Translations under genes and position numbers: made by a program | Source of the DNA: Alphaproteobacteria bacterium | GTDB taxonomy: Bacteria; Pseudomonadota; Alphaproteobacteria; Rs-D84; SZUA-605 | Assembly (NCBI GenBank): GCA_003250835.1 | Contig: QKJL01000014.1 | Span: 1-33,756, forward strand | Direction of reading: 5' to 3' | DNA: 33,756 nucleotides | Notes under the pieces: generated by a model | Databases searched by the model: none | What the model was told of the DNA's origin: nothing | Seen by the model: the letters and a program-made list of their open reading frames with translations, nothing else | Shown: positions 13,990 through 33,756 of the stretch, piece after piece | Layout: each line of letters starts with the position of its first letter | Position numbering within the stretch: the stretch's first letter is position 1

Positions 13990-16371
13990 ATGAAAAAAAA
14001 GGCCTTTTTTCTAACAATTTTAACACTATTTTCAGGTGCTGTGCTAAGTGCAAACGCTTATACACCGCCAAAAAGAAATCTAGATAATTCAAATACTGCA
14101 TCGCGCGCAGGTCGTTCATCACAGAGTACAGCGCGTCGTGGTCGTGTACGAATTGGAAATGGAATTGTGACAGCAGCCCCAGTATCAAGCACAACAGTAA
14201 CAGTGGGGTCAACAGGTGGCGTAACGTCAGCAACATCAGGTGTAGTAGTAGAAGAAGCAACTGTATCACAAAGTTTAAGCTTGTATGAATGTTCAAAAGA
14301 ATACACATCATGTTTGGAAAAACCTGGTATCTGTGATTATGGACTAAAAAACTGTAAAAAATATCTCGTATCATCAGTGGGCTCAATCACAGCTGATGAC
14401 ATTACAACAACTGATAATGGCTCAACATATACGGTAATTACGACAAATCCTCATAATTTGTACGCAGGCCTTGAAATCCGTATGACTGATGCAGCAGGTT
14501 CTTCAGTGGTAACAAAAGTATCAGCCGCAACATCAGCATTACAATTTACAGTGACAAACCCAGATGTAACAGTTGATTTAGCAGGATATACAACAATCTC
14601 ATTGATATCTTCATCTGTATTGGCATCATCATTCGCAAGTGAAAAGGGTGTATACTGTGAAGATGTGATCACAAACCAATGTGCAGCAGATATCACAGCA
14701 TCAGATGTATATCCATATGTAACACAACAAATGGAACAAGAATTCTTTATTACAGATTACGCATCATGCCGTAATGAATACACACGTTGTGTAAAAGACC
14801 CTCAAGTATGTGGATCTGATTATACAGGATGTGTAGATTTCTTGGTAACAGATACACGTAACGCAACATCAGCATCAGGCGTACATACATGTTCAGTAAG
14901 AAAATTAACATGTGAAGTAGATGAAATGCAAAGTTGTTATGATACATGTACACAAACAAATGCAATTGAAAGAGCAGAATGTATTACAGAATGCCAAGAA
15001 ACAACAGAAGCAATCACAACAATCTGTAAAACAAAATATAAAGCATGTTTACAAGAAGAAGGTGGAGCAATTGCTGGATACTCAAGTATGTCTGACAGTG
15101 ATACAACATCATTCTATAGTGCATTCCAAGAACGCGTACGTAGCTGTGATGATGAAGTATTTACACGTTGTAAGTTAAGTGCACAGGAACAATTAGATAT
15201 TGAAACATATGCATTAAATGATTACTTACGTAATGTGGATCAAGCATTGGTAACATACAATGAAACACATGGAAAAATCAAATGGACACAAGCATTAGAC
15301 TGTGTTGATAAAGTGGATGAATGTATGAAACAACACTGTGGTGAAGACTATAAAAACTGTTTAACAACAACAGGTCAACCAGATGAAATTACATTGAATA
15401 ATTTTAAATCATACTGTCAACGTGATTTAGTAAGTTGTTCTGAATTACGTGTAAGTGCTGGAATGCAAGGATACCAATTCTTAGCAAACCCAGATGTAGA
15501 CGGTGTATCACAAGTATGGGATGACTTTGTTGAAAACAAAATGTTGGCTCATGGTGCAAAAGTAGAAGTAGAACGTCGTGAATTAGATCGTGAATTAGAA
15601 GTATTAATTTCACGTGCTAACAAAAAATGTAACGACTTAGGTGGTCAATTCACATACGAACGTATGGAATTAGAAGTATTTTCTAAGAAATACGGCGATA
15701 GTCACACAACTGCAGATAACTTAGGTGGAAGTGTATTACATGGAACAAATACAAAAGCATTAAAAGAAGATAACTTCTATGAAAAAGCTGTGTGTCAATT
15801 CCCTGTTGAAATGCGTCGTTCTAACGTAGTGCAAGGTGAATCTAAAATGTTTGGCTTTGGTGATAAATTCACATGTGATGAAGCAACATTCGGAGTAGGA
15901 CCAAAAGTAAGTGACCGTAAAAATTCAGAAGCATGGGGTACTGTAATTGGTGCTGTTGTGGGTGCTGCTGGCGGTGGATTTGCTGGAAAGAAATTACAAG
16001 GGGATAATGGTCTATGGAAAGGTAAAAATGGCACAGACGATAAAAAAGCTGGTGGTAAATGGGTAGGAGCTGCAGCTGGTGGAGTTGTTGCTGGTACTCT
16101 TGGTGGTTTGGCTGGAAATGCAATTGGTAAAAGCAATGATGATAAAAAAGAAAAAGAAGCTTTGAAAGAAGAATCTAAAAACTGGGCTTGTTTTACTGGA
16201 TCACATAAATTAGCTGATTTTGCTGGAGAATACCAAGTAAACACACCTCAAGAATTTATTGATCTTGATGAATTCTACACAAAGAACCCTGAATTAGTGG
16301 TGCAACGTGGTGAATTTAGTAACGGATCAAACACAAGCAATAAATCATCATCTAATGGAGACTTTTTCTAA
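13990..16371 (+). CDS. Large exported Cys-rich protein with repeated Cys modules and a C-terminal glycine zipper
   Basis: Signal peptide MKKKAFFLTILTLFSGAVLSANA; about 30 Cys, mostly in CxxxYxxC-type motifs; GTVIGAVVGAAGGGFAG and WVGAAAGGVVAGTLGGLAGNAIG; TATAAT at 13950 and GAAGGAGA SD. Confidence 0.85.
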   Translation: MKKKAFFLTILTLFSGAVLSANAYTPPKRNLDNSNTASRAGRSSQSTARRGRVRIGNGIVTAAPVSSTTVTVGSTGGVTSATSGVVVEEATVSQSLSLYECSKEYTSCLEKPGICDYGLKNCKKYLVSSVGSITADDITTTDNGSTYTVITTNPHNLYAGLEIRMTDAAGSSVVTKVSAATSALQFTVTNPDVTVDLAGYTTISLISSSVLASSFASEKGVYCEDVITNQCAADITASDVYPYVTQQMEQEFFITDYASCRNEYTRCVKDPQVCGSDYTGCVDFLVTDTRNATSASGVHTCSVRKLTCEVDEMQSCYDTCTQTNAIERAECITECQETTEAITTICKTKYKACLQEEGGAIAGYSSMSDSDTTSFYSAFQERVRSCDDEVFTRCKLSAQEQLDIETYALNDYLRNVDQALVTYNETHGKIKWTQALDCVDKVDECMKQHCGEDYKNCLTTTGQPDEITLNNFKSYCQRDLVSCSELRVSAGMQGYQFLANPDVDGVSQVWDDFVENKMLAHGAKVEVERRELDRELEVLISRANKKCNDLGGQFTYERMELEVFSKKYGDSHTTADNLGGSVLHGTNTKALKEDNFYEKAVCQFPVEMRRSNVVQGESKMFGFGDKFTCDEATFGVGPKVSDRKNSEAWGTVIGAVVGAAGGGFAGKKLQGDNGLWKGKNGTDDKKAGGKWVGAAAGGVVAGTLGGLAGNAIGKSNDDKKEKEALKEESKNWACFTGSHKLADFAGEYQVNTPQEFIDLDEFYTKNPELVVQRGEFSNGSNTSNKSSSNGDFF

Positions 16372-16391
16372 AGGATGAATGGTAAAAAGAC

Positions 16392-16419
16392 TTGACTCTG
16401 AGGATCTTTGATCTATAAT
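16392..16419 (+). promoter_or_regulatory. Promoter of rimP-nusA-infB
   Basis: TTGACT, N16, TATAAT. Confidence 0.7.
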
Positions 16420-16440
16420 AGTCTATATTGTTGATATTAT

Positions 16441-16470
16441 GAAAAGAGTGGGGAAACCCGCTCTTTTTAA
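16441..16470 (+). terminator. Intrinsic terminator/attenuator-like hairpin in front of rimP
   Basis: AAAAGAGtGGG-GAAA-CCCgCTCTTTTT. Confidence 0.7.
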
Positions 16471-16490
16471 AAATGATAAAAGGACGATAA

Positions 16491-16982
16491 ATGCTATTAG
16501 AGCAAAAAATTGAACAAATTATTGAACCATCACTAGAAGATATGAATATCGAAGTGGTGCAAATCAATTATTACGGTGCTGGAAAGCGTAATGTGCTACA
16601 AATCTTACTAGATCGCACAGATGATCAAAAAATCTCTGTGAAAGATTGTGAGAAAGCATCTAAAACGGTATCAGCATTACTGGATGTAGAAGATGTGATT
16701 AAAAGTGCATATAATTTGGAAGTGAGTTCTGCTGGAATATCACGCCCATTAAATAAACCTGCGCACTTTAAACGCTTTATCGGAAGTCCAGTAAAGGTAA
16801 CAACAACCGATTTAATTAATGATCGTCGTCGTTTCAGTGGTGAATTAATGAATGCGACAGATAATGAAATTGAATTAAAAACAGAAGATCAAACGCTATC
16901 AATTAGATATATTGATATTGAAAAAGCAAAAATTGATGGCGATAAAATATTTGAAGATATCTTGAAAAAAGGAGCTAAATAA
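16491..16982 (+). CDS. rimP: Ribosome maturation factor RimP
   Basis: Position before nusA; VSSAGISRPLNKPAHFKRFIG matches the RimP core (V-S-SPGxDRPL). Confidence 0.9.
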   Translation: MLLEQKIEQIIEPSLEDMNIEVVQINYYGAGKRNVLQILLDRTDDQKISVKDCEKASKTVSALLDVEDVIKSAYNLEVSSAGISRPLNKPAHFKRFIGSPVKVTTTDLINDRRRFSGELMNATDNEIELKTEDQTLSIRYIDIEKAKIDGDKIFEDILKKGAK

Positions 16983-16983
16983 A

Positions 16984-18567
16984 ATGGATTTTTCACAAAC
17001 TCTACCACGTCCAGAATTACTTGCAATGGTAAATGCTTTATCAGAAGAAAAAGGCATTGAAAAAGAATTAGTATTCACAGCATTAGAAGAATCAATGTTG
17101 AAAGTGGCACGTAACCAATATGGATACGAACATGATTTATTGGTAAATATTGATCGTAAAACAGGCGGAATTGGTGTGCGTCGTCGTTTAACTGTAATTA
17201 AAGATGATAAACCAACAAAAGCGATGGACGAAGAAGGTAATCCAGTATTGGATGAAGAAGGGAACCAAATAATGATCCCATTCAACGAACATACTGAAAT
17301 CACAGTTGAAGATGCTCAAAAGAAAGATAAAAACTTAACAGTGGGTGACACAATCGAAGATTACTTACCACCCCTATACTTAGGACGTATGGCATTCCAA
17401 TCTGCACGTCAAATTGTATTGCAAAAAATCCGTGATGCAGAACGTACACGTCAATTCCAAGAATTTGAAGCTCTAGTAGGTACAGTAGTAAATGGAACAG
17501 TAAAACGTAACGAATATGGAAATGTATATGTTGATATTAATGGCCGTGCGGAAGGATACTTAAAACGTATGGAATTAATCCCAAGAGAAATGTTACACGC
17601 GGGCGACCGTATCCGTGCATTAATTTTGGAAGTAGAACGTACAAATTCAGGTCCACAAATCTTCTTGTCACGTTCACACCCTGATTTCATGGCAAAATTA
17701 TTCGAAGCAGAAGTGCCTGAAGTATACGAAGGAAATATCCAAATCAAAGCAGTGGCACGAGACCCAGGATCACACGCTAAAATCGCTGTATATTCAGAAG
17801 ATCCTTCAATGGATCCTGTTGGAACATGTGTAGGAATGCGTGGAAGCCGTATCCAACCAATTATTAATGAATTGCAAGGTGAAAAAATTGACGTGATCCA
17901 ATGGACACCTGATTTAGGTGAAATGGCAATCCGTGCAATCACACCAGCAAAAGCTGCAAAAGTGGTTGTGGATGAAGAAACAAAGAAAATCGAAATCGCT
18001 GTGGCTGCAGATCAATTATCAATTGCGATTGGACGTCGTGGACAAAACGTACGTTTGGCATCAGATTTGATTGGTTGTCAAATTGACGTGATGAGCGAAG
18101 CAGAAGAAGCAGAAAAACGTAACGTAGAAATTGCAGAACGTTTGGCTCTATTTACATCTGCATTGGATATCGATGAAGTGATTGCGCGTCTATTGTTAAC
18201 AGAAGGTTTCCGTACAATTGAAGAAATTGCATACGTACCAGCTGAAGAATTCATGGCAATCGAAGGTTTTGAACCTGAATTGGTGATCGAATTGCAAACA
18301 CGTGCGGCAACATACGTAGCAAAGAAAGAAAAAGAATTCGAAGATAAAAAAGAAGAATTACATATTGATGAAAGCTTAGTAAACTTCGATGGATTAACAA
18401 AAGAACAAAAAGTGTTATTGGCTGAAAAAGATGTGAAAACATTAGATGATTTAGCTGACTTGGCTGGTGATGAATTGGTTGATATTCTTTCAACAATGTC
18501 TGAAAAAGAAGCAAATGACATCATTATGAAAGCTCGTGAACACTGGTTCGAAGGCGAAGAAAAATAA
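16984..18567 (+). CDS. nusA: Transcription termination/antitermination protein NusA
   Basis: DPGSHAKIAVYSEDPSMDPVGTCVGMRGSRIQPIINEL and IAIGRRGQNVRLASDLIG KH motifs. Confidence 0.95.
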   Translation: MDFSQTLPRPELLAMVNALSEEKGIEKELVFTALEESMLKVARNQYGYEHDLLVNIDRKTGGIGVRRRLTVIKDDKPTKAMDEEGNPVLDEEGNQIMIPFNEHTEITVEDAQKKDKNLTVGDTIEDYLPPLYLGRMAFQSARQIVLQKIRDAERTRQFQEFEALVGTVVNGTVKRNEYGNVYVDINGRAEGYLKRMELIPREMLHAGDRIRALILEVERTNSGPQIFLSRSHPDFMAKLFEAEVPEVYEGNIQIKAVARDPGSHAKIAVYSEDPSMDPVGTCVGMRGSRIQPIINELQGEKIDVIQWTPDLGEMAIRAITPAKAAKVVVDEETKKIEIAVAADQLSIAIGRRGQNVRLASDLIGCQIDVMSEAEEAEKRNVEIAERLALFTSALDIDEVIARLLLTEGFRTIEEIAYVPAEEFMAIEGFEPELVIELQTRAATYVAKKEKEFEDKKEELHIDESLVNFDGLTKEQKVLLAEKDVKTLDDLADLAGDELVDILSTMSEKEANDIIMKAREHWFEGEEK

Positions 18568-18606
18568 ATCTGTAGAAACAGAAGAAAATAATAAAAAGGA
18601 ACATGT

Positions 18607-20997
18607 ATGACTGACGAAAAAAGAAAAACATTAACACTGGGTGGTGGGGTTTTAACTCGCACCCCTAGTGGAACGGGATCGTCGACGGTAAAAATTGAAC
18701 GTCGCCGCCGTATCGTACGTCCAAGTTCAGAACAAGCAGGAACTGCATCTGGAAATACAGATAAATTAAAAGCATTGTTGGAACAAGCAAAGCAACAAGA
18801 AAAAGAAGCTGTTCAAAAAGCAGAAGAACAAGCGAAGTTGAATGAAAAACGTCGTGCGGAAGCTGAAAAAGCTGAAAAAGAAGTTGCAGCAGTACGTGAA
18901 AAATTAGAAACAGTATCAAAAGAAAAAGCTGCTGAAAAAGTAGTGGAAGCTCAAGCTGCTGCGGAAAAGAAAGATCGTCCATCAAAGACATTTAAAAAGC
19001 CAATAACTTCAGAAGCACCAGTAATGGAGCAAAAAGAAGCTGCTAAAAAGACAAAAAAAGATAATCAAGCAGAATTCGGACGTCGTAAATTAACTGTGAA
19101 TGATATTATTTTGCATGGGGATGAAGATGACGAAGCAACAGTGATTACAACACGTCAAAAATCATTGGCTTCATTACAACGTCGTTTGGAAAAGCAAAAA
19201 CAAAAACAACACTCAGCTCAAAAAGGTGATCAAAAAGTTGTACGTGAAGTATCAATTCCAGAAACAATTACAGTGAAGGATTTGGCTGAACGTATGTCTG
19301 AAAAAGGCGCTGACGTAGTGAAAAAATTAATGGCAATGGGTGTAATGGCAACTATTAACCAAGTAATTGACGCGGATACAGCACAATTGATCGTGGAAGA
19401 ATTCGGTCACACATATAAACGTGTGGGTGAAGGTGAAATGATCAAAGCGATGTTGGCATCTAAAAAAGACTCAGCAGAAGATCTTGAGTTCCGTGCACCT
19501 GTTGTAACAATTATGGGACACGTGGATCATGGAAAAACAACATTGTTGGATGCTTTACGTGAAACAGACGTGGCTGGCGGAGAAGCTGGTGGAATCACAC
19601 AGCATATCGGTGCGTACCAAGTAAAATTGAAAAATGGAAAAAAGATTTCATTTATCGATACACCAGGTCACGCAGCTTTCTCATCAATGCGTGCACGTGG
19701 AGCAAATATCACTGACGTTGTGGTACTTGTTGTGGCTGCGAATGATGGAATTATGCCTCAAACAGTTGAAGCGATTTCACACGCAAAATCAGCGGGTGTA
19801 CCAATTATTGTTGCTGTAAATAAAATTGATTTACCAGAAGCAGATCCACACAAAGTGCGTATGGAATTATTGCAACACGAAGTGGTAACAGAAGGTGTAG
19901 GAGGGGATACTCTCTCAATCGATATTTCTGCGAAAAAACGTTTGAACTTGGATGCATTGGAAGAAGCTATTTTGTTACAAGCTGAAATGCTTGAATTAAA
20001 AGCAAATCCAAATAAATCTGCCGAAGGTGTGGTAGTAGAAGCAAAAGTAGAAAAAGGTTTGGGATCAACTGCAACTGTATTGATTCAAAATGGAACATTG
20101 AAAATTGGGGATGTATTTGTATCTGGAATGCAAATGGGACGTGTACGTGCCTTACAAGATTCATATGGAAACCGTATTACTGAAGCACTACCATCAGAAC
20201 CTGTAATGGTATTGGGTCTTCAAGGGACTCCAGAAGCAGGAGATGATTTTGTAGTACTTGAATCAGAATCAAAAGCACGTGAAATTGCTGAATATCGTCA
20301 AAAGAAACGTAAAGAAAAAGAAATGATCTTACGTTCAAAATCACGTATGGAAGCATTAATGGCTGGCGTAAAAGAAGGTGAAGTTGGAAAATTACCAATT
20401 GTAATCAAAGGTGACGTGCAAGGATCAATCGAAGCAATCGTAACATCACTTGAAAAAATGGGTGGTGGAAAAGTGCAAACAGAAGTGGTTCACGCAGGTG
20501 TAGGTGGTATCAATGAATCAGATATCACATTAGCACGCGCAACGAATGCTTTGGTAATTGGATTTAACGTACGTGCAAATCCACAAGCACGTGATGCGGC
20601 AAAGGCTGAAAACATCGATATTCGTTACTACTCAATTATCTATGATCTAACTGATGATATTAAAAAAGCGATGGAAGGAATGTTAGATCCTGAAATCAAA
20701 GAAACATTCATTGGTTATGCTGAAGTAAAAGATCTGTTCAGTGTAGGTAAAGGAACAAAAGTGGCGGGATGTATAGTGACAGAAGGTATCATTAAACGTG
20801 ATGCAAAGATTCGCTTGATCCGCAACGATGTGGTAATGTACACAGGTGACATCGGACAATTGAAACGTTTCAAAGATGACGTGAAAGAAGTGCGTGAAGG
20901 TCAAGAATGTGGATTATCATTCCAAAACTATAATGATCTGTCAGTAGGCGATAGAATCGAATGCTATACAGAAGAAAAAATCGACGTTAAATTATAA
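18607..20997 (+). CDS. infB: Translation initiation factor IF-2
   Basis: VTIMGHVDHGKTTLLDALR, DTPGHAAF, NKIDLPEADPHKV. Confidence 0.96.
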   Translation: MTDEKRKTLTLGGGVLTRTPSGTGSSTVKIERRRRIVRPSSEQAGTASGNTDKLKALLEQAKQQEKEAVQKAEEQAKLNEKRRAEAEKAEKEVAAVREKLETVSKEKAAEKVVEAQAAAEKKDRPSKTFKKPITSEAPVMEQKEAAKKTKKDNQAEFGRRKLTVNDIILHGDEDDEATVITTRQKSLASLQRRLEKQKQKQHSAQKGDQKVVREVSIPETITVKDLAERMSEKGADVVKKLMAMGVMATINQVIDADTAQLIVEEFGHTYKRVGEGEMIKAMLASKKDSAEDLEFRAPVVTIMGHVDHGKTTLLDALRETDVAGGEAGGITQHIGAYQVKLKNGKKISFIDTPGHAAFSSMRARGANITDVVVLVVAANDGIMPQTVEAISHAKSAGVPIIVAVNKIDLPEADPHKVRMELLQHEVVTEGVGGDTLSIDISAKKRLNLDALEEAILLQAEMLELKANPNKSAEGVVVEAKVEKGLGSTATVLIQNGTLKIGDVFVSGMQMGRVRALQDSYGNRITEALPSEPVMVLGLQGTPEAGDDFVVLESESKAREIAEYRQKKRKEKEMILRSKSRMEALMAGVKEGEVGKLPIVIKGDVQGSIEAIVTSLEKMGGGKVQTEVVHAGVGGINESDITLARATNALVIGFNVRANPQARDAAKAENIDIRYYSIIYDLTDDIKKAMEGMLDPEIKETFIGYAEVKDLFSVGKGTKVAGCIVTEGIIKRDAKIRLIRNDVVMYTGDIGQLKRFKDDVKEVREGQECGLSFQNYNDLSVGDRIECYTEEKIDVKL

Positions 20998-21018
20998 TTT
21001 AACCAGATTCAAAATAAT

Positions 21019-21048
21019 AAAAAAGGTGCGTTAATCGTACCTTTTTTA
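21019..21048 (+). terminator. infB terminator
   Basis: aaaaaaGGTgCG-ttaat-CGtACCtttttt. Confidence 0.75.
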
Positions 21049-21147
21049 TTTTTATAAAGATAGGGCTTGCGTTTTGATTTGTGGAGCATTATGATTGGTG
21101 TTCAGTTGAACGATAACATTAACTTATAATCAAGAAGGAGACTCTAA

Positions 21148-21996
21148 ATGTTATATACAATCGGTCTATTTATCTTGGCATTTGTAATCTTGCTAGGATA
21201 TAAATTTTACTACAATATGGTAATCAACTGGAAGAAAGAAAAAAAAGGTAAAACAGATAAACGTTTCGTAGTAGAAGCTTTATTACCAACAATTTTCTTA
21301 TTTGTTGCATCATACTTTATCGCAACAATTGCAATTCGTCCATACTTGATGTCTCATCCTGAAATTCTACGTGAAATGGCGATGGAATTAGCAAACAACC
21401 AACAAAAAGATCAACGCAAAAAAGTATCTTCATATGTAAAAGAACATAAAGATGAATTACAAGCGACTGCTCCTGCTTTTGGTAAAGAAGATGCATCAGT
21501 AACAATTTATGAATTCTATGACTACAGTTGTTCAGCATGTAAAATGGCAAGTAAATTTGTAAAAGAATATATGGAAAAAGATGCTGACGTGAAAATCGTT
21601 TTGAAAAACTATCCAATTCGTCCATTCTCATTCATCGCTGCACAAGCTTCTATCGCTGCTAAAGCTCAAGGCGCTGATAAAGTAAAAGCATTACATGAAG
21701 CAATGTTTGAAGAAGGTATTATCCCTGCGAAATACAACGATATCAAAGATGCTAAAAAACGTGAAGATTCTTTAAAGAAAAAAGTATTTGAAATTGCTAA
21801 AAAAGCCGGATTGGATACAGAAAAATTAGAAGCTGACATGAATGCTGAATCAGTAATGGTTGAATTACGTAAAACACGTGAAGCTGGTTCTGAATTTGGA
21901 ATTGAAGGAACACCTTTCTTCGTAATCGGTGATAACTTCTACCCAGGTGCTATGACAGTTCAAGAAATTGAAAAAGCTGTTAAAGAAGCTCGTTAA
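21148..21996 (+). CDS. DsbA-family (Com1/DsbD-gamma-like) membrane-anchored thiol:disulfide oxidoreductase
   Basis: N-terminal TM helices, YEFYDYSCSACKMASKF (CxxC), cis-Pro region GIEGTPFFVIG. Confidence 0.85.
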   Translation: MLYTIGLFILAFVILLGYKFYYNMVINWKKEKKGKTDKRFVVEALLPTIFLFVASYFIATIAIRPYLMSHPEILREMAMELANNQQKDQRKKVSSYVKEHKDELQATAPAFGKEDASVTIYEFYDYSCSACKMASKFVKEYMEKDADVKIVLKNYPIRPFSFIAAQASIAAKAQGADKVKALHEAMFEEGIIPAKYNDIKDAKKREDSLKKKVFEIAKKAGLDTEKLEADMNAESVMVELRKTREAGSEFGIEGTPFFVIGDNFYPGAMTVQEIEKAVKEAR

Positions 21997-22031
21997 AGAA
22001 TACTTTTCTCTCCTCAAAAAGAAAAGTAATA

Positions 22032-22060
22032 AATCCCCGCTTTGTTGCGGGGATTTTCTT
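22032..22060 (+). terminator. Terminator of the DsbA-like gene
   Basis: aatccccgc-tttgtt-gcggggattttctt. Confidence 0.8.
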
Positions 22061-22062
22061 AT

Positions 22063-22091
22063 TTGACAAAAGATATAAATGGGAATAGGAT
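22063..22091 (+). promoter_or_regulatory. Promoter of an unlisted intergenic transcription unit
   Basis: TTGACA (22063-22068), N17, TAGGAT (22086-22091). Confidence 0.55.
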
Positions 22092-22097
22092 AAAATT

Positions 22098-22272
22098 CAT
22101 AACCTATTATTTTGATATATGTTGTTAAAAACAATCACTGAGCATTTCGACGAAATGACGACGAAAATGCAAGTTAAAAAAAAGAAAGAAAAATGTATTA
22201 AACGAAGAGCATTTCGACGTTGAATACAAGTACAAACCAGGCCGCTTTTTGCGGCCTTTAATTATGTTTTTT
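22098..22272 (+). ncRNA. Candidate small RNA or short mRNA ending at hairpin 22239-22257
   Basis: Promoter upstream; AGGCCGC-ttttt-GCGGCCT then ttaattatgttttttt; also holds a 34-codon ORF (22119-22223). Confidence 0.4.
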
Positions 22273-22344
22273 TGTTTGTATTTAAAAAATCAATTTGGTA
22301 TCATAATTCAAGGTTTATAAAAGTTATGAGAGGGGAAACAAAAA

Positions 22345-24378: not shown

Positions 24379-24381
24379 TAA

Positions 24382-24900
24382 ATGAAAAAGTTTAAAAATG
24401 TTTTATGGGTTGTTGGAATTGCATTTGTATTAGATCAAATCACAAAATGGATAATTTTGAAAAAGATTGTGACATCAATTCCATTTGTGGTCTCAGCAAC
24501 AGATTTAATCCCAACACCAGTATACATAGCAAAGGTAACATCATTTTTTAATATTATTTTCGCATGGAATAAAGGTGTAAGCTTTAGTATTTTATCAGGT
24601 GATAAAATGCAATGGATATTAGTTCTAATTTCATTGGCGATTGTCAGTTTATTAATCCATTGGTTGAAAAGCGAAAAAAATGAAATACGTAAAATCGGTT
24701 TTGGCTTGATTATTGGTGGGGCGCTTGGAAACGTGATTGATCGTATCCGTTTTGGTGCAGTTGTAGATTTTTTGGATGTACATGCTTACGGATATCATTG
24801 GCCAACATTTAATGTGGCGGATATGTGTATCGTATTGGGCGCTGGTCTTTATTTGTGGACCCAGGTGCAGGCTGAAAAAATCAAAAATAAGAAGAAATAA
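24382..24900 (+). CDS. lspA: Lipoprotein signal peptidase (signal peptidase II)
   Basis: FAWNKGVSFSIL, GGALGNVIDRIRFGAVVDFLDVH, WPTFNVADMCIVLG catalytic Asp motifs. Confidence 0.93.
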   Translation: MKKFKNVLWVVGIAFVLDQITKWIILKKIVTSIPFVVSATDLIPTPVYIAKVTSFFNIIFAWNKGVSFSILSGDKMQWILVLISLAIVSLLIHWLKSEKNEIRKIGFGLIIGGALGNVIDRIRFGAVVDFLDVHAYGYHWPTFNVADMCIVLGAGLYLWTQVQAEKIKNKKK

Positions 24901-24907
24901 AAAATAC

Positions 24908-24935
24908 TTGGAATTTCAGATTTTACTGTTATAAT
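24908..24935 (+). promoter_or_regulatory. Promoter of the ferredoxin-NADP reductase gene
   Basis: TTGGAA, N16, TATAAT. Confidence 0.6.
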
Positions 24936-24966
24936 GACGAAACTTAATTAACTTAATAAAGGAAAA

Positions 24967-25704
24967 ATGATGGCGTATAACGCAGTTGTTGAAAAAATTG
25001 TTGATGTAGCACCTGGAATTAAAGAATTCACAGTGGCATACAATGATCGTGAACCAGATTTTACAGCAGGACAATTTTGTGTATTAGGATTGGAAGATGA
25101 AAACGGAAAATTAATTAACCGTGCATACTCAATCTCTTCTGCACCAAAGGAAGGCAAAATGTCTTTCTATATCGTATTAGTAGAAGGTGGTCAATTAACA
25201 CCACGTCTATTCGCATTAAAAGAAGGTGATGATATCTTTATGGGACCTAAATGCGCTGGACATATGACAATTGAAAAAGCAAAAGAAGCAAAACGCTTTA
25301 TCTTTGTGGCATCAGGAACTGGAATTGCATCATTCAGAAGTTTAATCATAGAACATGAAGATTTCTTTAAAAATAAAAAAATTGCATTGTTGCACGGTGT
25401 GCGTAAATCATGTGATTTAGGATATAAAGATGAAATGAATGAACGTATGAAAAAATATCCAGAAAGTTTCCATTATTTCCCAGTGGTATCACGTGCGGAA
25501 GAAGGTGAAAAATGGAATGGTCTTAACGGTCGTGTAAATATGGTGGCTGAAAATGGACTAATTCAAAAAGCATGGGGTGAAGAATTAACACCTGAACATA
25601 CACATGTTTATTTCTGTGGAAATCCTAAAATGGTTGAAGATATGTCTAAATTCTTCGAAGAAAAAGGATTTGCAAAAGAAACACTTCATAAAGAAGCATA
25701 CTAA
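24967..25704 (+). CDS. fpr: Ferredoxin--NADP+ reductase
   Basis: RAYSISSAP FAD motif, FVASGTGIASFRSLI, VYFCGNPKMVEDM. Confidence 0.85.
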   Translation: MMAYNAVVEKIVDVAPGIKEFTVAYNDREPDFTAGQFCVLGLEDENGKLINRAYSISSAPKEGKMSFYIVLVEGGQLTPRLFALKEGDDIFMGPKCAGHMTIEKAKEAKRFIFVASGTGIASFRSLIIEHEDFFKNKKIALLHGVRKSCDLGYKDEMNERMKKYPESFHYFPVVSRAEEGEKWNGLNGRVNMVAENGLIQKAWGEELTPEHTHVYFCGNPKMVEDMSKFFEEKGFAKETLHKEAY

Positions 25705-26111
25705 ATTAAAGAAAGTCGGCAATCGCCGGCTTTTTTTATCAGATATTGATAGAGTTGGTAAGGCGTCAAAATAAAAGGGGCGTAAAGTCCAAGTGTGCGT
25801 TTAACAAAAGAAACGCATGAAAAAAGTTCAATAGAAAGGCGCGGTTCAAAAAAAGAGATATTTGTTTTAATAATATCAAATCCACGAAATGCAAGTTGAG
25901 TTAAGGTGTCAGGGGTATCATCTTTGACGAATAATTGAATATGAAGACGTTGGGATAAGGGGTCAAGTAAAAGAAAATGTGTGTCATTTTCAAGTAAGAC
26001 AGCGCAATGGCGATAAGATGGATGTAATATTTGTAAAATTTTTAAATGCGTATGAGGGTGAAAAAGAACATAAGCAGATGAAAATTCAGAGGTTAATGTT
26101 TGGGTTTGCAT
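25701..26111 (-). CDS. Conserved-looking hypothetical protein, possible permuted NlpC/P60-like fold
   Basis: RHCAVLLENDTHFLLLDP followed by SCVSFVKRTLGLYAPFILTPYQLYQYL. Confidence 0.6.
   Translation of the reverse strand: MQTQTLTSEFSSAYVLFHPHTHLKILQILHPSYRHCAVLLENDTHFLLLDPLSQRLHIQLFVKDDTPDTLTQLAFRGFDIIKTNISFFEPRLSIELFSCVSFVKRTLGLYAPFILTPYQLYQYLIKKAGDCRLSLI
25712..25737 (+). terminator. fpr terminator, lying inside the convergent CDS
   Basis: AAAGtCGGC-aatc-GCCGgCTTTtttt. Confidence 0.75.
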
Positions 26112-26479
26112 TGAACAATTCCTTTCTGAATAAAGATAGTGGTCATTAAATCAATAGCTGTATTCCAAAGTGGATAATCATCAACTTCATCGGCGTGGTG
26201 AATGTCTGGTGTGGTAAAGCGGCTGCCATATTCAATTAAAATATCAACATGACGTTGAGTAATATGTCCAGCAAGACGTAATTTCAACACAACGCGGATA
26301 ATATCATCAAGATCACATGGGCGTTGAATAGTTGAAAAACTAGATTTTCGACAAAAAGATCCAGCTTCATCACGCATGGCTTGATATCGACAAAACCAAA
26401 ACCAGGCTTCTTCCGTATCATTAAAGGGAGTATATTCCTTAGATTCGTCGATTCGATTATTATTTAAATAGGTATTCAT
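26093..26479 (-). CDS. Conserved-looking alphaproteobacterial hypothetical protein
   Basis: EEAWFWFCRYQAMRDEA, QRPCDLDDIIRVVLKL; SD-like aaggagg upstream on the minus strand (ttttcctccttaa). Confidence 0.65.
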   Translation of the reverse strand: MNTYLNNNRIDESKEYTPFNDTEEAWFWFCRYQAMRDEAGSFCRKSSFSTIQRPCDLDDIIRVVLKLRLAGHITQRHVDILIEYGSRFTTPDIHHADEVDDYPLWNTAIDLMTTIFIQKGIVQCKPKH

Positions 26480-26527
26480 TCATTTTCCTCCTTAAATCAT
26501 GAACAAAGAGAGAACAAATGTATCAAA

Positions 26528-26554
26528 AGTTGTATGTAAAGTCAATATACAACT
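26528..26554. promoter_or_regulatory. Operator-like inverted repeat between divergent genes
   Basis: AGTTGTAT (26528-26535) and ATACAACT (26547-26554). Confidence 0.45.
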
Positions 26555-26675
26555 GAAAATATTCCTATAATTGTATTTTACTTGAAATTTGTGTATGATA
26601 TGATTTATAGATAAAGATAGCCTAAATATCTTTTTGATCAAACAAATCATGAAAGACTAAACAAAGGAGGCGTAT

Positions 26676-26936
26676 ATGAACCATACTCAAGTCTGGAATG
26701 CGATTGATAAAATTGCAAAATCAAAAAATCTATCTGTGTCAGGTTTGGCACGTAAAGCTGGATTAGATGCTACAACATTTAATCGTAGTAAACGTGTAAC
26801 TGAAACTGGCAAAAAACGTTGGCCAACAACAGAAAGCTTAGCAAAGGTATTGAACTCAAACGACATGACGTTGAATGATTTCGTTAAATTTGTAAACGAA
26901 GACTCGTTGGCGGAGGTTATGAAGCGTAATTATTAG
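26676..26936 (+). CDS. HTH (Cro/CI-like) regulator, stand-alone DNA-binding domain
   Basis: HTQVWNAIDKIAKSKNLSVSGLARKAGLDATTFNRSKR; SD aaaggagg. Confidence 0.8.
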   Translation: MNHTQVWNAIDKIAKSKNLSVSGLARKAGLDATTFNRSKRVTETGKKRWPTTESLAKVLNSNDMTLNDFVKFVNEDSLAEVMKRNY

Positions 26937-26978
26937 AACCGCTGAATAAAAAACTTTATTTTTGATGAGAATTTTGAT

Positions 26979-27006
26979 AAAAAGATTCCCAAAGGGGGTC
27001 TTTTTT
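26979..27006 (+). terminator. Terminator after the HTH gene, overlapping the yraN ribosome-binding region
   Basis: AAAAAGAttCCC-aaa-GGGggTCTTTTTT. Confidence 0.55.
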
Positions 27007-27009
27007 AGC

Positions 27010-27378
27010 ATGATGAAAAAGAAAACAAATCATCAACGTGGAATTTGGGCTGAAAAAATATCAATTATATATTTGTGGCTCAAAGGATATTCGCTGATTG
27101 CGACACGTTTTGGCGCAGGTCAAAAAGGTGGTGGAAAAGGTGAGATTGATTTGATCATGCGCAAAGGTAAAACGATTGTCTTTATCGAAGTAAAATATCG
27201 TCAATCAGAAGAAGATGCGCTGTTCGCGATTAGTTCGATGCAAAAAAATAGAATTCGTCGAAATGCAGAATTGTTTTTAAAACGTTTCCCACGCTATCAG
27301 TGTATCGATTGTCGTTTTGATGCAATGCTGTTATCAAAAGGAAAATTACTGCCAACACATATCAAAAATGCATTTTAA
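27010..27378 (+). CDS. yraN: UPF0102/YraN family protein (endonuclease-like fold)
   Basis: RGIWAEKISIIYLWLKGY, GEIDLIMRKGKTIVFIEVKYR; MMKKK start preferred over 26962. Confidence 0.88.
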   Translation: MMKKKTNHQRGIWAEKISIIYLWLKGYSLIATRFGAGQKGGGKGEIDLIMRKGKTIVFIEVKYRQSEEDALFAISSMQKNRIRRNAELFLKRFPRYQCIDCRFDAMLLSKGKLLPTHIKNAF

Positions 27379-27408
27379 AAAAGCTACTTTTCAGTAGCTC
27401 TTTTTTTT
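27377..27408. terminator. Bidirectional terminator between yraN and the ABC transporter
   Basis: aaaaaaGCTACT-tttc-AGTAGCtctttttttt. Confidence 0.8.
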
Positions 27409-29188
27409 ATTTTTCCTTTTTAAATTGAAGGTAATATAACTTTGCATACGTACCATCTTTTTTCAAAAGTTCATCATGAGTACCTTGTTCAACAATTTCA
27501 CCATCATTCACAACACAGATAAGATCTGCATTCATAATGGTTGAAAGACGATGGGCGATCACAAGTGTTGTACGTCCTTTCATAAGTTTTTCAAAAGCAT
27601 TTTGAACGATTTTTTCTGATTTAGTATCCAATGCAGATGTTGCTTCATCAAGTAAAAGGATCGGAGCATCTTTTAAGATCGCACGTGCAATTGAAACACG
27701 TTGTTTTTGACCGCCTGATAAACGACTACCACCTTCCCCAACAATAGTTTCGTATTTATCTGGAAGTGCGTCAATAAATTCTGCCGCAGCAGCTTTTTCG
27801 GATGCTTCAACAAGCATCTTTTTTGAAACGTGTTTATGTGTTCCATAAGAAATATTATTTGCAATAGTGTCATCAAATAAAATAACATCTTGTGATACAA
27901 GAGCCATGTTATTACGCAAGCTGTTTTGAGTAACCTGAGAAATATCTTGTCCATCAATTGTAATTTGTCCTTGGTCAAGATCATAAAAACGTGGAAGTAA
28001 ACGCATGATTGTACTTTTTCCACCACCAGATGCGCCAACAAGAGCAACTGTTTTCCCAGCAGGAATAGTAAGGTTTACATTCTTTAAAATCTTTTCATTT
28101 TTATTATAAGAAAAATCAACACCTTTAAATTCAATTTGTCCTTTTGTTACTTTTAAGTCTTTTGCATTTTTCACATCACGTATATCTGACGTAGTATCAA
28201 ATACTTTAAACATACGTTCTGTATTTTTAAATGGTTGTTGTAATTGCATAAATGTATTCGACATAGATTTTAATGGGCGGTAAGAACCAAACAAAGCAGA
28301 AAGGAATGTTACAAATTCACCTGTTGTCATTAATCCTTCTGTAATTTGATAACCACCAATTAAGATTGTACCAGCCATCGCTGCTCCACCAAGAAATTCC
28401 ATAGTTGGACGTGAACGTGAAGTTACACGAAGATTTTTCAATGATAATTTATAAAGTGTATCAAGCATTGAGCGTAAGCGTGTTTTTTCAAAAGTTTCTT
28501 TGCAATAGATTTTTACAATTTCCATACTGTTGAAAACTTGGAACAGGTAAGAGTTTAAACCTTCAGATTCTTTCATTGATTTACCCCAAAGATGACGAAC
28601 CTTTTTTCCAAATAAAGAAAGAGGAATGGCAACAGCAGGTAAAAGAACCAAAATAATAAGTGAAAGTTGTGGTGATTGTAAAACCATTAAAACAACCATT
28701 CCAATAATTGTAAAAACATCTTTCAAAAAAGCAGTAAAGAAAGTTTGCAATACTTGGTTAACAGCAGCGGTGTCAGTACCAAAATGAGTAAGTAATTGCC
28801 CGGTAGTTGTTTTTTTAAAGAAACTATAATCCATATCCATAAAATGATTAAACATGCGTGTTTGAATATCGCGTGTGATTTTGATGCCAGCCATCCCCAT
28901 AATCATCACATGGGCAAATAGAGCAATACTTTTTACAAAAAAGATAGCAATAATTTGAATAGAAATACCTGCGAGGGCATCTTTGTTTTTTGCAATAAAA
29001 GCTTCATCAAAAATACCTTTTAAAAGTGAAAGACTATATGCTTCACCACCAGATGATAAAATCATGAAAAAGACTGCGCCCACTACATACCAAATGTAAT
29101 GCTTCAAAGAAAAGTGCCATAAACGTTTTAAAAGGTTTAAATTAGTATCTGAAAATTCAAATTTTTCTTTTGCCATAAATAATCTCAT
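27407..29188 (-). CDS. ABC transporter, fused TM-ATPase, MsbA-like lipid exporter
   Basis: Walker A GASGGGKSTIMRLLPRFYD, signature LSGGQKQRVSIARAIL, Walker B ILLLDEATSALD. Start may be 29176 (MAKEK). Confidence 0.9.
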   Translation of the reverse strand: MRLFMAKEKFEFSDTNLNLLKRLWHFSLKHYIWYVVGAVFFMILSSGGEAYSLSLLKGIFDEAFIAKNKDALAGISIQIIAIFFVKSIALFAHVMIMGMAGIKITRDIQTRMFNHFMDMDYSFFKKTTTGQLLTHFGTDTAAVNQVLQTFFTAFLKDVFTIIGMVVLMVLQSPQLSLIILVLLPAVAIPLSLFGKKVRHLWGKSMKESEGLNSYLFQVFNSMEIVKIYCKETFEKTRLRSMLDTLYKLSLKNLRVTSRSRPTMEFLGGAAMAGTILIGGYQITEGLMTTGEFVTFLSALFGSYRPLKSMSNTFMQLQQPFKNTERMFKVFDTTSDIRDVKNAKDLKVTKGQIEFKGVDFSYNKNEKILKNVNLTIPAGKTVALVGASGGGKSTIMRLLPRFYDLDQGQITIDGQDISQVTQNSLRNNMALVSQDVILFDDTIANNISYGTHKHVSKKMLVEASEKAAAAEFIDALPDKYETIVGEGGSRLSGGQKQRVSIARAILKDAPILLLDEATSALDTKSEKIVQNAFEKLMKGRTTLVIAHRLSTIMNADLICVVNDGEIVEQGTHDELLKKDGTYAKLYYLQFKKEK

Positions 29189-29333
29189 AATTAGTGTTTA
29201 AAATACCCTTGATAGCATACGCACCAAAACGTTAGAATGCAAGTGAATAAAGGCATTGCTTTTAAAAGAAAAAAAATATAAAATGAAAGTATGATGGAAA
29301 TAAATTTAAGTTTATTTGTTGTGTCTCGTATGT

Positions 29334-29357
29334 CATCCCCTGTGCTGGGGTAATTTT
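29334..29357 (+). promoter_or_regulatory. Hairpin upstream of serS (leader or palindromic intergenic element)
   Basis: gtcatCCCC-tgtgct-GGGGtaattttt. Confidence 0.4.
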
Positions 29358-29422
29358 TAGTTGTGTCAAAAATAATTATTGAAGAAGAAAAATAAGCTTA
29401 ATTTTAAAATAAAGGAAGTAAA

Positions 29423-30706
29423 ATGTTGGATACAAAATTTATTGTAGAAAATCCAGATATCGTAAAAAAAGCAGCGGAAGTAAAAAATATTAAGTGCGAT
29501 GTTGATCAAATTGTTGAATTGTATAATGCTATAAATATGTTAAAAGCAGAATATGAAACATATTTAGCAAAAAAGAATGAAATATCAAAAAAAATTCCAA
29601 GTGCGACAAATGAAGAACGCCCTGCATTGATTGCTGAATCAAAAGAAGCTGGGGAAAAAGCAAAAGAACTTAGCGAGCATTTAGAGCAAAAAGAAATAGT
29701 GTTAAAAGATTTATTAGCACGTGTCCCACAAATTCCAGCAGATAATGTCCCGTTTGGAAAAAGTGATGCAGATAATGTGGTAATTAAAACAGTTGGTGAA
29801 AAACATATATTTGATTTTGAGCCAAAATCACATTATGACTTGTTAATTGAAAATGATTGGGCTGATTTTGAAAAAGTGGCACAAGTAGCTGGTCCACGTT
29901 CTCATGCGTTAAAAGGTGTAATGGCAAGATTGGAAATCGCAGTACATATGTTCGTGATGGATAAGTTAACAGATAATGGTTTTACAATTGTTTCTGTGCC
30001 TGCAATTTGTAAACCTGAATCAGTAATGGCAGCAGGACATTTTCCAGGAAACGATTTAACAATAATGAAAGATGATGTATATCAATTGGGTGATACAGGT
30101 CGTTCATTGGCGGGAACATCTGAAATTACATTAAATGCATTGCATGCGGGTGAAATTTTAAAAGAAGATGATTTGCCAATTTTATATGCGGGATATTCAT
30201 CTTGTTTTCGTAAAGAAGCTGGGTCAGCAGGTAAAGATACACGTGGGTTAATTCGTGTACATCAATTTACAAAAGTGGAACAATTTGTAATTTGCAAAGG
30301 AACAGAAGAAGAAAGTGCAAAATGGCATGCAAAGTTATTATCAATCATTGAAGAGGTGATGACTGATTTAGAATTGCCGTATCAAGTGATTGAAGCATGT
30401 ACAGGTGATATGGGCTTTAATAAAATCCGTATGCATGATGTGGAAGCATGGGTGCCATCAGAAGAAAAATATCGTGAGCTTGGAAGTTGTTCAACAATTC
30501 ATGATTTTCAGGCGCGTCGTACAAATACACGTTACCGTGAAAGTGGAACAAATAAAGTGAAGTTTGTGCATACGTTAAATAATACTGGAATTGCGACCCC
30601 ACGTGCGTTAGCGCCATTAATCGAAAATCATCAAACAAAAGATGGTAATGTGCGAATTCCTGAAAAATTACGCCCATATATGCAAAATAAAGAATTTCTG
30701 AAATAA
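29423..30706 (+). CDS. serS: Seryl-tRNA synthetase
   Basis: N-terminal coiled-coil arm, PAICKPESVMAAGHFPG, SSCFRKEAGSAGKDTRGLIRVHQFTKVE, SCSTIHDFQARRTNTRYR. Confidence 0.95.
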   Translation: MLDTKFIVENPDIVKKAAEVKNIKCDVDQIVELYNAINMLKAEYETYLAKKNEISKKIPSATNEERPALIAESKEAGEKAKELSEHLEQKEIVLKDLLARVPQIPADNVPFGKSDADNVVIKTVGEKHIFDFEPKSHYDLLIENDWADFEKVAQVAGPRSHALKGVMARLEIAVHMFVMDKLTDNGFTIVSVPAICKPESVMAAGHFPGNDLTIMKDDVYQLGDTGRSLAGTSEITLNALHAGEILKEDDLPILYAGYSSCFRKEAGSAGKDTRGLIRVHQFTKVEQFVICKGTEEESAKWHAKLLSIIEEVMTDLELPYQVIEACTGDMGFNKIRMHDVEAWVPSEEKYRELGSCSTIHDFQARRTNTRYRESGTNKVKFVHTLNNTGIATPRALAPLIENHQTKDGNVRIPEKLRPYMQNKEFLK

Positions 30707-30733
30707 GTTATTTTTTGAATCACAGTAAGGAAT

Positions 30734-30768
30734 AGAGAAGATTTTATCGAATCTTCTCTCTTTTTTTT
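30734..30768 (+). terminator. serS terminator
   Basis: AGAGAAGATT-ttatcg-AATCTTCTCTcttttttttt. Confidence 0.85.
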
Positions 30769-30861
30769 ATGTAAAAAGTGATTAAAGCCTTTTTTTTGCT
30801 AGGGTTTTATGATACAATGGGAGGTAACTAGAATTTCTAGAACGAGAATGGAGAGAAGGAA

Positions 30862-33756
30862 ATGAAAAAACTTTCATATATTTTGCTAGCAGTTGCAGCA
30901 TGTTTTGTGGTAACAGATATGGCATCTGCGCAACGTAGTAGATCAAGAGATACAGATACTGAAGGAAGTGCTCGAACATCAACACGTAGTTCACGTGGTG
31001 ATGACGCAACATCAGTGGGTCGCTCAGGACGTAGTGGGCGTTCATCAGGAGAAGTATCAAGTCGTGGTGGGCGTGGAACACGTGGAGGCGATTCAGATTC
31101 AACAGATGAAGATACAAATGGACGTGGAACAGCATCATCAGGTCGTTCAGGCCGTAGTGGACGTTCAGGATCAGGAGAAGTATCAAGTCGTGGTGGACGT
31201 GGAACACGTGGAGGCGATTCAGATTCAACAGATGAAGATACAAATGGACGTGGAACAGCATCATCAGGTCGTTCAGGTGGCCGTAGTGGACGTTCAGGAT
31301 CAGGCGAAACAGCAAGTCGTTCATCAGGTAGTCGTGGAACTCGTGGTGGATCAGACTCTTCAGGTTCAACAAGTGAACGTGGTGGACGTGGAACAGCGTC
31401 ATCAGGTCGTTCAGGCCGTAGTGGACGTTCAGCTTCAGGTGTAGCTCGTGGTAACTCAGCTTCAACAGGTAGTCGTTCTTCAACAGGTGGACGCAATAGT
31501 ACTGCCTCAGCAGGTCAATCAACTGGAAGTACAGGTCGTTCAGGCGGTAATAGCTCAGCAATGATGATGAATACAGCAGCAACAGCAGTAAATGATACAA
31601 GTCGTTCAGGTCGTACACGTATGGCAGTAGGACGTAGTGGTGTAACTGTAGCCGCTGCAACAACAGCAACAACAGCAGCGACAACAACAACTACAACTAC
31701 ATCAACAACGCCAACAATGTTAACTGCAATGCCAACACAAGCTGTTCAAGGAATGACAATTGGTAATCAAGGAATGGTTGTGGATGCTAATGGTCAATAT
31801 GTGGCGCCAAGTGCTGTGAATTACTATGATACAGAAAATCAAGCATATGGTCAGGTATCAACATTATATAGTCAAGAGGAAGCGCAAAGACGTGCAGAAG
31901 CCGAACGAGATATTGCTGATGTGCAAACATGTACAGAACGTTATAAAACATGTATGGATGAAATCTGTTTAGATACAGTAAAAGAAGCTGCTGGTCGAAC
32001 AGTATGTTCATCATCATGGAAAAGTTATAAACCAAAAGAAAAACAAATTGATGAATTGTTTAGACAATTGGTGCAATTGCAAGCTCAAGCAAAAATTTTA
32101 GCTGAATTTGGCGAAAAAGAAGGTGTGGAAGCAAGTTTGCAAGCAGCAACAACAGAAGCAATTGTTACTTTGGTTGGTGATCTCGGAATGGATACAGAAA
32201 AATTAGCAATTGATATGGAAGGTGATGAAGAAAGTAATTTTGATTTTGGTTTTAATCTAGATGATGATAATTTCTCACTTGATAGTTTAGTTGATTATGG
32301 AAACGTTGGTGGACGTAAAGAAGGTGATGCATTGCGTAAAGATGCTGAAAAAGCATGTGAATATGTATTGAAAACATGTCCAAAAGATGAAATTTCAAGT
32401 GCGAAATCATTTTATTCAGCAAAAATTTCAAAGGATGCGCGTGCATATGACGTTTCTTTAGATGAAACATTGAAAAAATCAACATTAGCAATGCAAAAAC
32501 TATATAATGAATATCAAAGAGTAGCTAAAAAACAAGAAGCAAATAAAAATAAATACAGTAAAGCACAGTGTTTAGAAAAAGCAATGGAAGAATTGCAAGA
32601 TAAAGAACGTTGTGATAAAGATTTTGCTGCATGTTATACAGATGAAGCATTTGAACAACAAAAAGCTTTTGTAAGTGGTATTTTAGGACAATGTCAAGCC
32701 GTAGCAGCTGATGTATGGACAAACTTAAAAGAAATTGCATTAGGACGTGGTCAGTTTACAGAATCTGAATGTTCAAAAGCAATTCAAAGTTGTATCCAAG
32801 AATCATGTGGAGAAGGATATAAGATGTGTCCATCATTGGATGATGTGATTTTATATCGTACACAATGTTCAACTAATATTAAACAATGTGGATCAGCTGG
32901 TGAAGAAATTTGGGAACAAATTTTGGTTGTAGCTGAAAATGAAATCCGCTTAAACTGTAAAGAAGTTGATGAAGGTTACTGGGATGCTGAAAAACGTCGT
33001 TGTATTACACAAACAGAACGTGAAATGGACAGCTTGAAAGCAGCTTATGAACTATGTGATGAAGCAGCGGGCGAAATGTTTAATGAAGAAACACGTTTAT
33101 GTGAAACAGCAGAAATTCAAAATCAACGTAAATGTGAAGAACAAGGAATGTCTTGGTATTTCACAGAAAATATGTGTTTGACTCAAGATCAAATTAAAGA
33201 AAAAATTGCAACAATTCAAATCCGTGGTGATGAATTAGATGCAGATCTTGCAAACCATATTAAACAGGCTGATATTGCGGAAGAAGATAAACGTAAAATT
33301 GAAGCAGAAGCTGTAGCACGTGAAAGAGAAGCTGCATCTAAGTTAGAAGCAACAAAAAAATCTCAAATTGAAAAAGATACACGTATGTTAGAGTATCAAT
33401 TGGTTGAAGCTGGAAAACAAGCTGAAATTGCGATGACAAACTTGCAAAGTCAATTAAATATGACTCAAGCACAAGTGGAAGCAACAGCTAAGAAACTCCA
33501 AACTGAATTAGAAGCATACTTGCAACGTCAAGAAACTAAGAAAGATGCATCTAGAAAAGAAGCGTTAGATCAATTGCAATATCAATTGGATGCTGCAAAG
33601 TTAAAAGGCTCTATTTCAGAACAAGAAAATGCACGTAAAATTGCATTGGCAGAAGCTGAAAAACAAATTGCAGAAATTGAACGTAAAGAAGAAGCAGAAC
33701 GTCAAGCAATGTTGGCTGAAAAATCAGCGGCTGAAATCAAGCTCTTAGAAGCTCAA
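30862..33756 (+). CDS. Large exported SR/G-rich, Cys-rich and coiled-coil protein; open at the window end (965 codons visible)
   Basis: SD GAAGGA, signal peptide MKKLSYILLAVAACFVVTDMASAQ, continuous frame with no stop to 33756; omitted from the ORF track because it is unterminated. Confidence 0.9.
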   Translation, partial: MKKLSYILLAVAACFVVTDMASAQRSRSRDTDTEGSARTSTRSSRGDDATSVGRSGRSGRSSGEVSSRGGRGTRGGDSDSTDEDTNGRGTASSGRSGRSGRSGSGEVSSRGGRGTRGGDSDSTDEDTNGRGTASSGRSGGRSGRSGSGETASRSSGSRGTRGGSDSSGSTSERGGRGTASSGRSGRSGRSASGVARGNSASTGSRSSTGGRNSTASAGQSTGSTGRSGGNSSAMMMNTAATAVNDTSRSGRTRMAVGRSGVTVAAATTATTAATTTTTTTSTTPTMLTAMPTQAVQGMTIGNQGMVVDANGQYVAPSAVNYYDTENQAYGQVSTLYSQEEAQRRAEAERDIADVQTCTERYKTCMDEICLDTVKEAAGRTVCSSSWKSYKPKEKQIDELFRQLVQLQAQAKILAEFGEKEGVEASLQAATTEAIVTLVGDLGMDTEKLAIDMEGDEESNFDFGFNLDDDNFSLDSLVDYGNVGGRKEGDALRKDAEKACEYVLKTCPKDEISSAKSFYSAKISKDARAYDVSLDETLKKSTLAMQKLYNEYQRVAKKQEANKNKYSKAQCLEKAMEELQDKERCDKDFAACYTDEAFEQQKAFVSGILGQCQAVAADVWTNLKEIALGRGQFTESECSKAIQSCIQESCGEGYKMCPSLDDVILYRTQCSTNIKQCGSAGEEIWEQILVVAENEIRLNCKEVDEGYWDAEKRRCITQTEREMDSLKAAYELCDEAAGEMFNEETRLCETAEIQNQRKCEEQGMSWYFTENMCLTQDQIKEKIATIQIRGDELDADLANHIKQADIAEEDKRKIEAEAVAREREAASKLEATKKSQIEKDTRMLEYQLVEAGKQAEIAMTNLQSQLNMTQAQVEATAKKLQTELEAYLQRQETKKDASRKEALDQLQYQLDAAKLKGSISEQENARKIALAEAEKQIAEIERKEEAERQAMLAEKSAAEIKLLEAQ
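31045..31296 (+). repeat. 126-bp in-frame tandem repeat, two near-identical copies plus a degenerate third
   Basis: gaagtatcaagtcgtggtgg at 31051 and 31177; gattcagattcaacagatgaagatac at 31090 and 31216; both offsets are 126 bp. Confidence 0.9.

Follow-up and report, generated by a model that had tools for sequence, protein, structure and literature searches.

The window is the entire contig QKJL01000014.1 (33,756 nucleotides; here C22) of a genome of 671 kb in 39 contigs, 84% complete; its relatives by name belong to the Candidatus Enterousia group of uncultured Alphaproteobacteria from the gut, which is the GTDB order Rs-D84 (PMC12306168). Two genes for exported, cysteine-rich proteins, P1 and P2, are located on its forward strand. 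P1 (13990-16371, 793 residues) is transcribed away from miaB-ybeY-lnt and precedes rimP-nusA-infB; P2 (30862-33756) has serS upstream and is open at its 3' end, with gene names read off the translations. P2 is cut by the contig end, its final 156 residues being located on contig C36, and the end of the window and C36 overlap by 144 identical bases. If the two contigs join, P2, C36a and C36b form a tandem. Other families do not share the arrangement of genes that surrounds P1 and P2. The features are as follows.

Immediately upstream of P1 (+): ribosome-binding-like site AAGGAGAA (sequence)
13990-16371 (+): P1, exported Cys-module protein with 30 cysteines after residue 25 (ORF; module HMM)
13990-14058 (+): P1 signal peptide (sequence; heuristic)
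14134-14199 (+): P1 linker RRGRVRIGNGIVTAAPVSSTTV (sequence; R.R[ILMV]..VT also in P2, C36a and one P1 orthologue)
14290-14355 (+): P1 Cys module 1, CSKEYTSC..CDYGLKNC (module HMM, 6.6 bits)
14767-14832 (+): P1 Cys module 2, CRNEYTRCVKDPQVCGSDYTGC (module HMM, 17.8 bits)
15025-15048 (+): P1 partial Cys module, CKTKYKAC (module HMM, 8.4 bits)
15301-15360 (+): P1 Cys module 3, CVDKVDECMKQHCGEDYKNC, residues 438-457 (module HMM, 19.3 bits; hhalign)
15766-15996 (+): P1 C-terminal 'GDkftC....FG' module (held-out HMM, 30.1 bits, 0/1000 shuffles; profile A6)
15934-16143 (+): P1 glycine-zipper pair (PF13488, two stretches over the cut-off)
21148-21996 (+): membrane-anchored DsbA-like oxidoreductase (CSAC), possible oxidant of the Cys modules (PF01323, E = 6e-19)
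30862-33756 (+): P2, exported Cys-module protein, 965 residues in the window and 156 more on C36 (ORF; continuation)
30862-30930 (+): P2 signal peptide (sequence; heuristic)
30931-31602 (+): P2 Arg/Ser/Gly-rich stretch (composition test; tandem repeat)
31018-31439 (+): 126-bp tandem repeat inside that stretch (repeat analysis)
31603-31671 (+): P2 linker RSGRTRMAVGRSGVTVAAATTAT (sequence)
31900-32769 (+): P2 N-terminal Cys domain, CxxxYxxCMDxFC ... G..L...A...C-x6-C ... NKY...C, all-helical in the AF2 model (order-wide profile A5; AF2)
31930-31968 (+): P2 N-module CTERYKTCMDEIC (ORF translation; invariant Cys columns)
32755-32952 (+): P2 Cys unit, containing CSKAIQSCIQESCGEGYKMC (module HMM; profile search)
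32770-32829 (+): CSKAIQSCIQESCGEGYKMC, residues 637-656 of P2 (translation)
33247-33756 (+): P2 long-helix, coiled-coil-like segment, extending onto C36 (AF2 secondary structure, moderate confidence)

It can be observed that both proteins begin with a signal peptide, as judged by a heuristic and as claimed in an earlier note on this DNA. The positions given there for the P1 and P2 motifs at 15301-15360 and 32770-32829 are correct, and the N-module, placed 'near 31928', begins at 31930. An Arg/Ser-rich stretch had also been claimed for both; that of P2 is repetitive (RS 20 against 8.2 expected, with a maximum of 15 over 300 shuffles), whereas that of P1 is short and non-repetitive (RS 1 observed against 1.1 expected). 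P1 scores 27 bits against PF13488 (Gly-zipper_Omp; gathering cut-off 25) and P2 has no match; the PF00691 OmpA domain was found in neither by Pfam scan. The trimmed P2 domain was modelled by AF2 as all-helical with a mean pLDDT of 82.6, the helices of the N-module and the Cys unit being mostly above 85.

Relationship between P1 and P2

Direct comparison of P1 with P2 by BLASTP is weak (E = 0.002). The first unit HMM, built from 19 strict six-Cys units, had no success on P1 at the whole-sequence level; it was too narrow and was replaced, as a post-hoc change, by an HMM from 86 core units. The module HMM built without P1 located four full or partial copies of the module in P1, the best at 19.3 and 17.8 bits, and the sum of the three best copies, 45.5, was reached by none of 2000 shuffles, even when the positions of Cys, or of both Cys and Gly, were kept. 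When P2 was held out, the result was likewise 0 of 2000 shuffles. Moreover, alignment by hhalign of a P2-type profile (A7) with P1 and its two orthologues scored 50.7, compared with maxima of 21.1 for shuffled columns and 29.0 with Cys columns fixed; none of the 150 shuffles of either kind reached the real score. The shared Cys module that the earlier note had described thus exceeds chance in both analyses. That note had named as its own refuter a profile alignment no better than composition-matched shuffles, and since the score lies above even the Cys-fixed maximum, this refutation fails. Both proteins carry the superfamily unit C-x6-C-x(3-7)-C-G-x2-[YF]-x2-C above Cys-fixed shuffles.

Furthermore, a C-terminal module, 'AGd.f.C....FGiDP', is common to P1 and P2, and is followed in P1 by the Gly zipper. 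With both proteins held out, its HMM recovers P1 at 30.1 bits (0 of 1000 shuffles); the P2 tail is marginal, at 11.5 bits against a shuffle maximum of 11.4 (0 of 1000), and the module was missed in one P1 orthologue. The linker pattern R.R[IM]..G..VT recurs in C36a and one P1 orthologue, by pattern match only. The P2-type N-terminal domain (profile A5) matches P2, C37, C7 and C19, and P1 is not among the matches. Strong matches to P1-type proteins came from families f1 and f6 only. The proposal of divergent paralogues is accordingly retained for the modules, which are homologous, but not for the whole length: P1 lacks the N-terminal domain of about 280 residues of P2 and is not a simple full-length paralogue. 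By these profiles, P1 is a separate branch, a modular relative of P2 that shares with it the Cys unit and the C-terminal module only.

Distribution in the genome and the order

At least eight such proteins are encoded in the genome of the window, and the build of signal peptide, Arg/Ser-rich stretch and Cys modules is repeated in C36a, C36b, C36c, C37, C24/C7 and C19. Contigs C24 and C7 (L015:4373-5260 and L014:5278-7074) both end within near-identical GRSGRSGQ repeats and are probably two ends of one gene broken there; repeats of this type break assemblies in the Cys-module family. In C36a (L012:1860-1935, contig C36), a frameshift between the Cys units and the C-terminal module is either a real break or an assembly error. 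The interval between C36a and C36b encodes two further proteins that look exported and have no known family (L012:2917-4158 and L012:4163-4492). Close downstream of a P1 orthologue, another Cys-rich protein (L138:9353-12001; 883 residues in the stretch read) has 49 cysteines, and the Cys-rich neighbour clusters c5, c11, c12, c13 and c16 flank family genes. Translation genes, identified from translations and clusters, repeatedly adjoin family genes (rimP-nusA-infB, serS, EF-Tu, rplI, rpoA-rplQ and infA), namely at window positions 13990 and 30862 and at L134, L138, L139, L114 and L122. This neighbourhood may reflect high expression.

Profile A5, which represents the P2 N-domain, has matches in 113 of the 114 sampled Rs-D84 genomes. 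Across 385 sampled Alphaproteobacteria genomes, it matched the five Rs-D84 members only and none of the approximately 380 genomes outside the order. In a pattern scan of GTDB species genomes, relatives are encoded at 217 of 276 pattern matches, and the best 80 relatives occur in records labelled Alphaproteobacteria, Enterousia, Rickettsiales or uncultured proteobacterium. The single-contig genome G026 contains about 13 distinct frames that match at E ≤ 1e-5, totalling about 10,300 codons or about 3% of approximately 1 Mb. A frame of 24,626 residues with a module match in G036 was discarded as artefactual, being produced by a run of N.

Searches of Pfam, NCBIfam and PDB sequences with P1, P2 and the family returned nothing except the Gly zipper of P1. 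The Foldseek matches of the full-length P2 model were noisy because of its long helices, so the trimmed domain was folded, which also had no match in the PDB or viral libraries. Relatives were found in neither viral contigs nor plasmids, and PHROGs contained nothing for P1, P2 and L114, with one family of unknown function matching the tail of L081 only; a mobile origin of the family is therefore unsupported. In literature searches the family was nowhere described. The earlier suggestion of a new exported family, with several members per genome and common modules in similar order, is borne out by these data, and the family is real and appears to be undescribed and specific to the order.

Cysteine pattern and proposed role

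Family members contain about 4% Cys, and C-x6-C is the dominant spacing (1491 against 202 expected). The Cys scaffold is strictly conserved, though members share only 15-25% identity. An even Cys count is present in 109 of 140 complete members (p = 2e-11, an optimistic value since members are related). Cysteines are also lost jointly: columns 218 and 280 in an Enterousia clade and C19, columns 333 and 348 in the same clade and L111, columns 9 and 148 in two sequences only (L021 and C19), and columns 31 and 167 in P2. These comprise few independent events, most cases arising from one clade of 24 sequences that loses five columns together. There is no clear exception to pairwise loss among the aligned members; column 148 is missing from two sequences in which column 9 is unclear, and in P2 and L021, which have lost column 218, column 280 aligned to a gap. 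If columns 211, 218, 225, 232, 280 and 287 are taken as C1 to C6, loss of 218 with 280 would place C2-C5 in one unit, loss of 333 with 348 would place C3-C4 in the next unit, and C1-C6 would follow by elimination. The Cys units are thus predicted to be disulfide-stapled helical hairpins, both the disulfides and their exact pairing being read from alignments and models.

Regarding location, a signal-peptide-like start is present in 134 of 140 complete members compared with 128 of 461 flanking proteins, by a simple heuristic, and 67 of the 140 have a Gly/Ala-rich membrane-like end. In the relative C8, the C-terminal module (16.0 bits, 0 of 1000 shuffles) is fused to an OmpA domain (PF00691), which is also present in an Enterousia neighbour of the family. 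The 'surface or matrix system' that had been proposed would be consistent with the signal peptides, with the Gly zippers and with the relatives fused to OmpA. The family probably belongs to the cell envelope of bacteria that are suspected of living at the expense of other cells.

Module homology, export signals, order-wide multiplicity, Cys spacing, even Cys counts and joint loss of Cys pairs are computed results, and the following model of location and function was built on them. After Sec export, the Cys units would fold as stapled hairpins, in which one C-x6-C helix pairs with a second through C1-C6 and C2-C5, with C3-C4 as a loop bridge, and DsbA-like proteins would oxidise them. DsbA-like genes are present in the window and near family clusters in L076, L083 and L087, which favours this step, and the failure to find DsbB or VKOR in 15 genomes of the order counts against it. 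The Arg/Ser-rich N-terminal stretch would be flexible. At the C-terminus, the Cys-bearing 'FG' module would be accompanied in P1 and many others by glycine-zipper segments that insert into the membrane or dock to it. Together, the copies may form an envelope coat or adhesive layer, rigid and resistant to proteases, where metabolically dependent bacteria would meet gut or partner cells. We hold with moderate confidence that this exported modular superfamily, apparently specific to Rs-D84, consists of disulfide-stapled hairpins forming an envelope coat or adhesive contact layer, which would be its most likely role.

A second explanation, that the proteins are secreted or surface-displayed adhesins or effectors directed at a eukaryotic or bacterial partner, with the Cys modules as protease-resistant binding repeats rather than a coat, is considered rather unlikely. 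The inferred partner dependence of Rs-D84 and its many hypothetical membrane-bound proteins (PMC12306168), the many divergent copies per genome and the long repetitive Arg/Ser-rich extensions of several members are compatible with it. However, the membrane-like ends of nearly half of the complete members (67 of 140) and a Cys scaffold retained at such low identity are more in keeping with structural parts, and no gene of a known secretion system turned up next to family genes. It is improbable that the cysteines instead coordinate metal or serve as reversible thiols, in metal-binding or redox-buffer proteins. The Cys content and the anaerobic gut habitat would suit such a function, and neither DsbB (0 of 15) nor VKOR was found in 15 Rs-D84 genomes, although DsbA-like proteins are present; the cysteines could then bind metal or remain partly reduced. 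Against this, disulfides agree with C-x6-C spacing along one face of a helix, with the even counts and with loss in pairs, and the spacing table is not dominated by CxxC-type metal sites. An independent origin of signal peptide, low-complexity linker and Cys-rich stretches, alike by composition, deserves very little credence: the marginal BLASTP result and the N-domain missing from P1 would allow it, but it is refuted at the module level by the Cys-fixed shuffles (0/2000 and 0/150), and the C-terminal module is common to both proteins as well.

The envelope coat or contact layer can be compared with known systems. Twin CX9C (CHCH) proteins of mitochondria are helical hairpins with C-x9-C pairs. 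The likeness, an analogy only, would be nested disulfides between two hairpin helices; in contrast, the dominant spacing here is C-x6-C with an extra C3-C4 loop bridge, and Pfam gave no CHCH match. P1 resembles Gly-zipper_Omp proteins in its tail only, and OmpA-family proteins are approached by C8, whereas P1 and P2 lack the OmpA domain. Disulfide-rich envelope proteins are already known from the chlamydial outer membrane complex, in which Cys-rich OmcA and OmcB occur with DsbA/DsbB and disulfide cross-linking is implicated (PMC6752827). Both cases involve exported Cys-rich proteins in a dependent Gram-negative with a reduced genome and DsbA, as read here from sequence; the Rs-D84 family differs in its repeated C-x6-C units, many paralogues and lack of a detected DsbB, and showed no homology to the chlamydial proteins in Pfam, NCBIfam or PDB searches. 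We tentatively suggest an order-specific twin C-x6-C disulfide hairpin fold, exported in about a dozen copies as a cross-linked envelope or contact layer of reduced-genome anaerobes, with a DsbA pathway that operates without DsbB or VKOR. The missing DsbB and VKOR raise the question of how disulfides form in strict anaerobes.

Rs-D84 bacteria are common in the guts of ruminants and other animals, have genomes near or below 1 Mb with key pathways missing, are suspected of depending on other cells, and code for numerous hypothetical membrane-bound proteins with a possible role in contact with other cells (PMC12306168); no Cys-rich family is named there, though the organisms and the proposed cell contact are the same. 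Since the family is kept by nearly the whole order and occupies about 3% of one complete genome, it is a strong candidate for the contact interface of Rs-D84, and offers localisation and structural studies a definite target.
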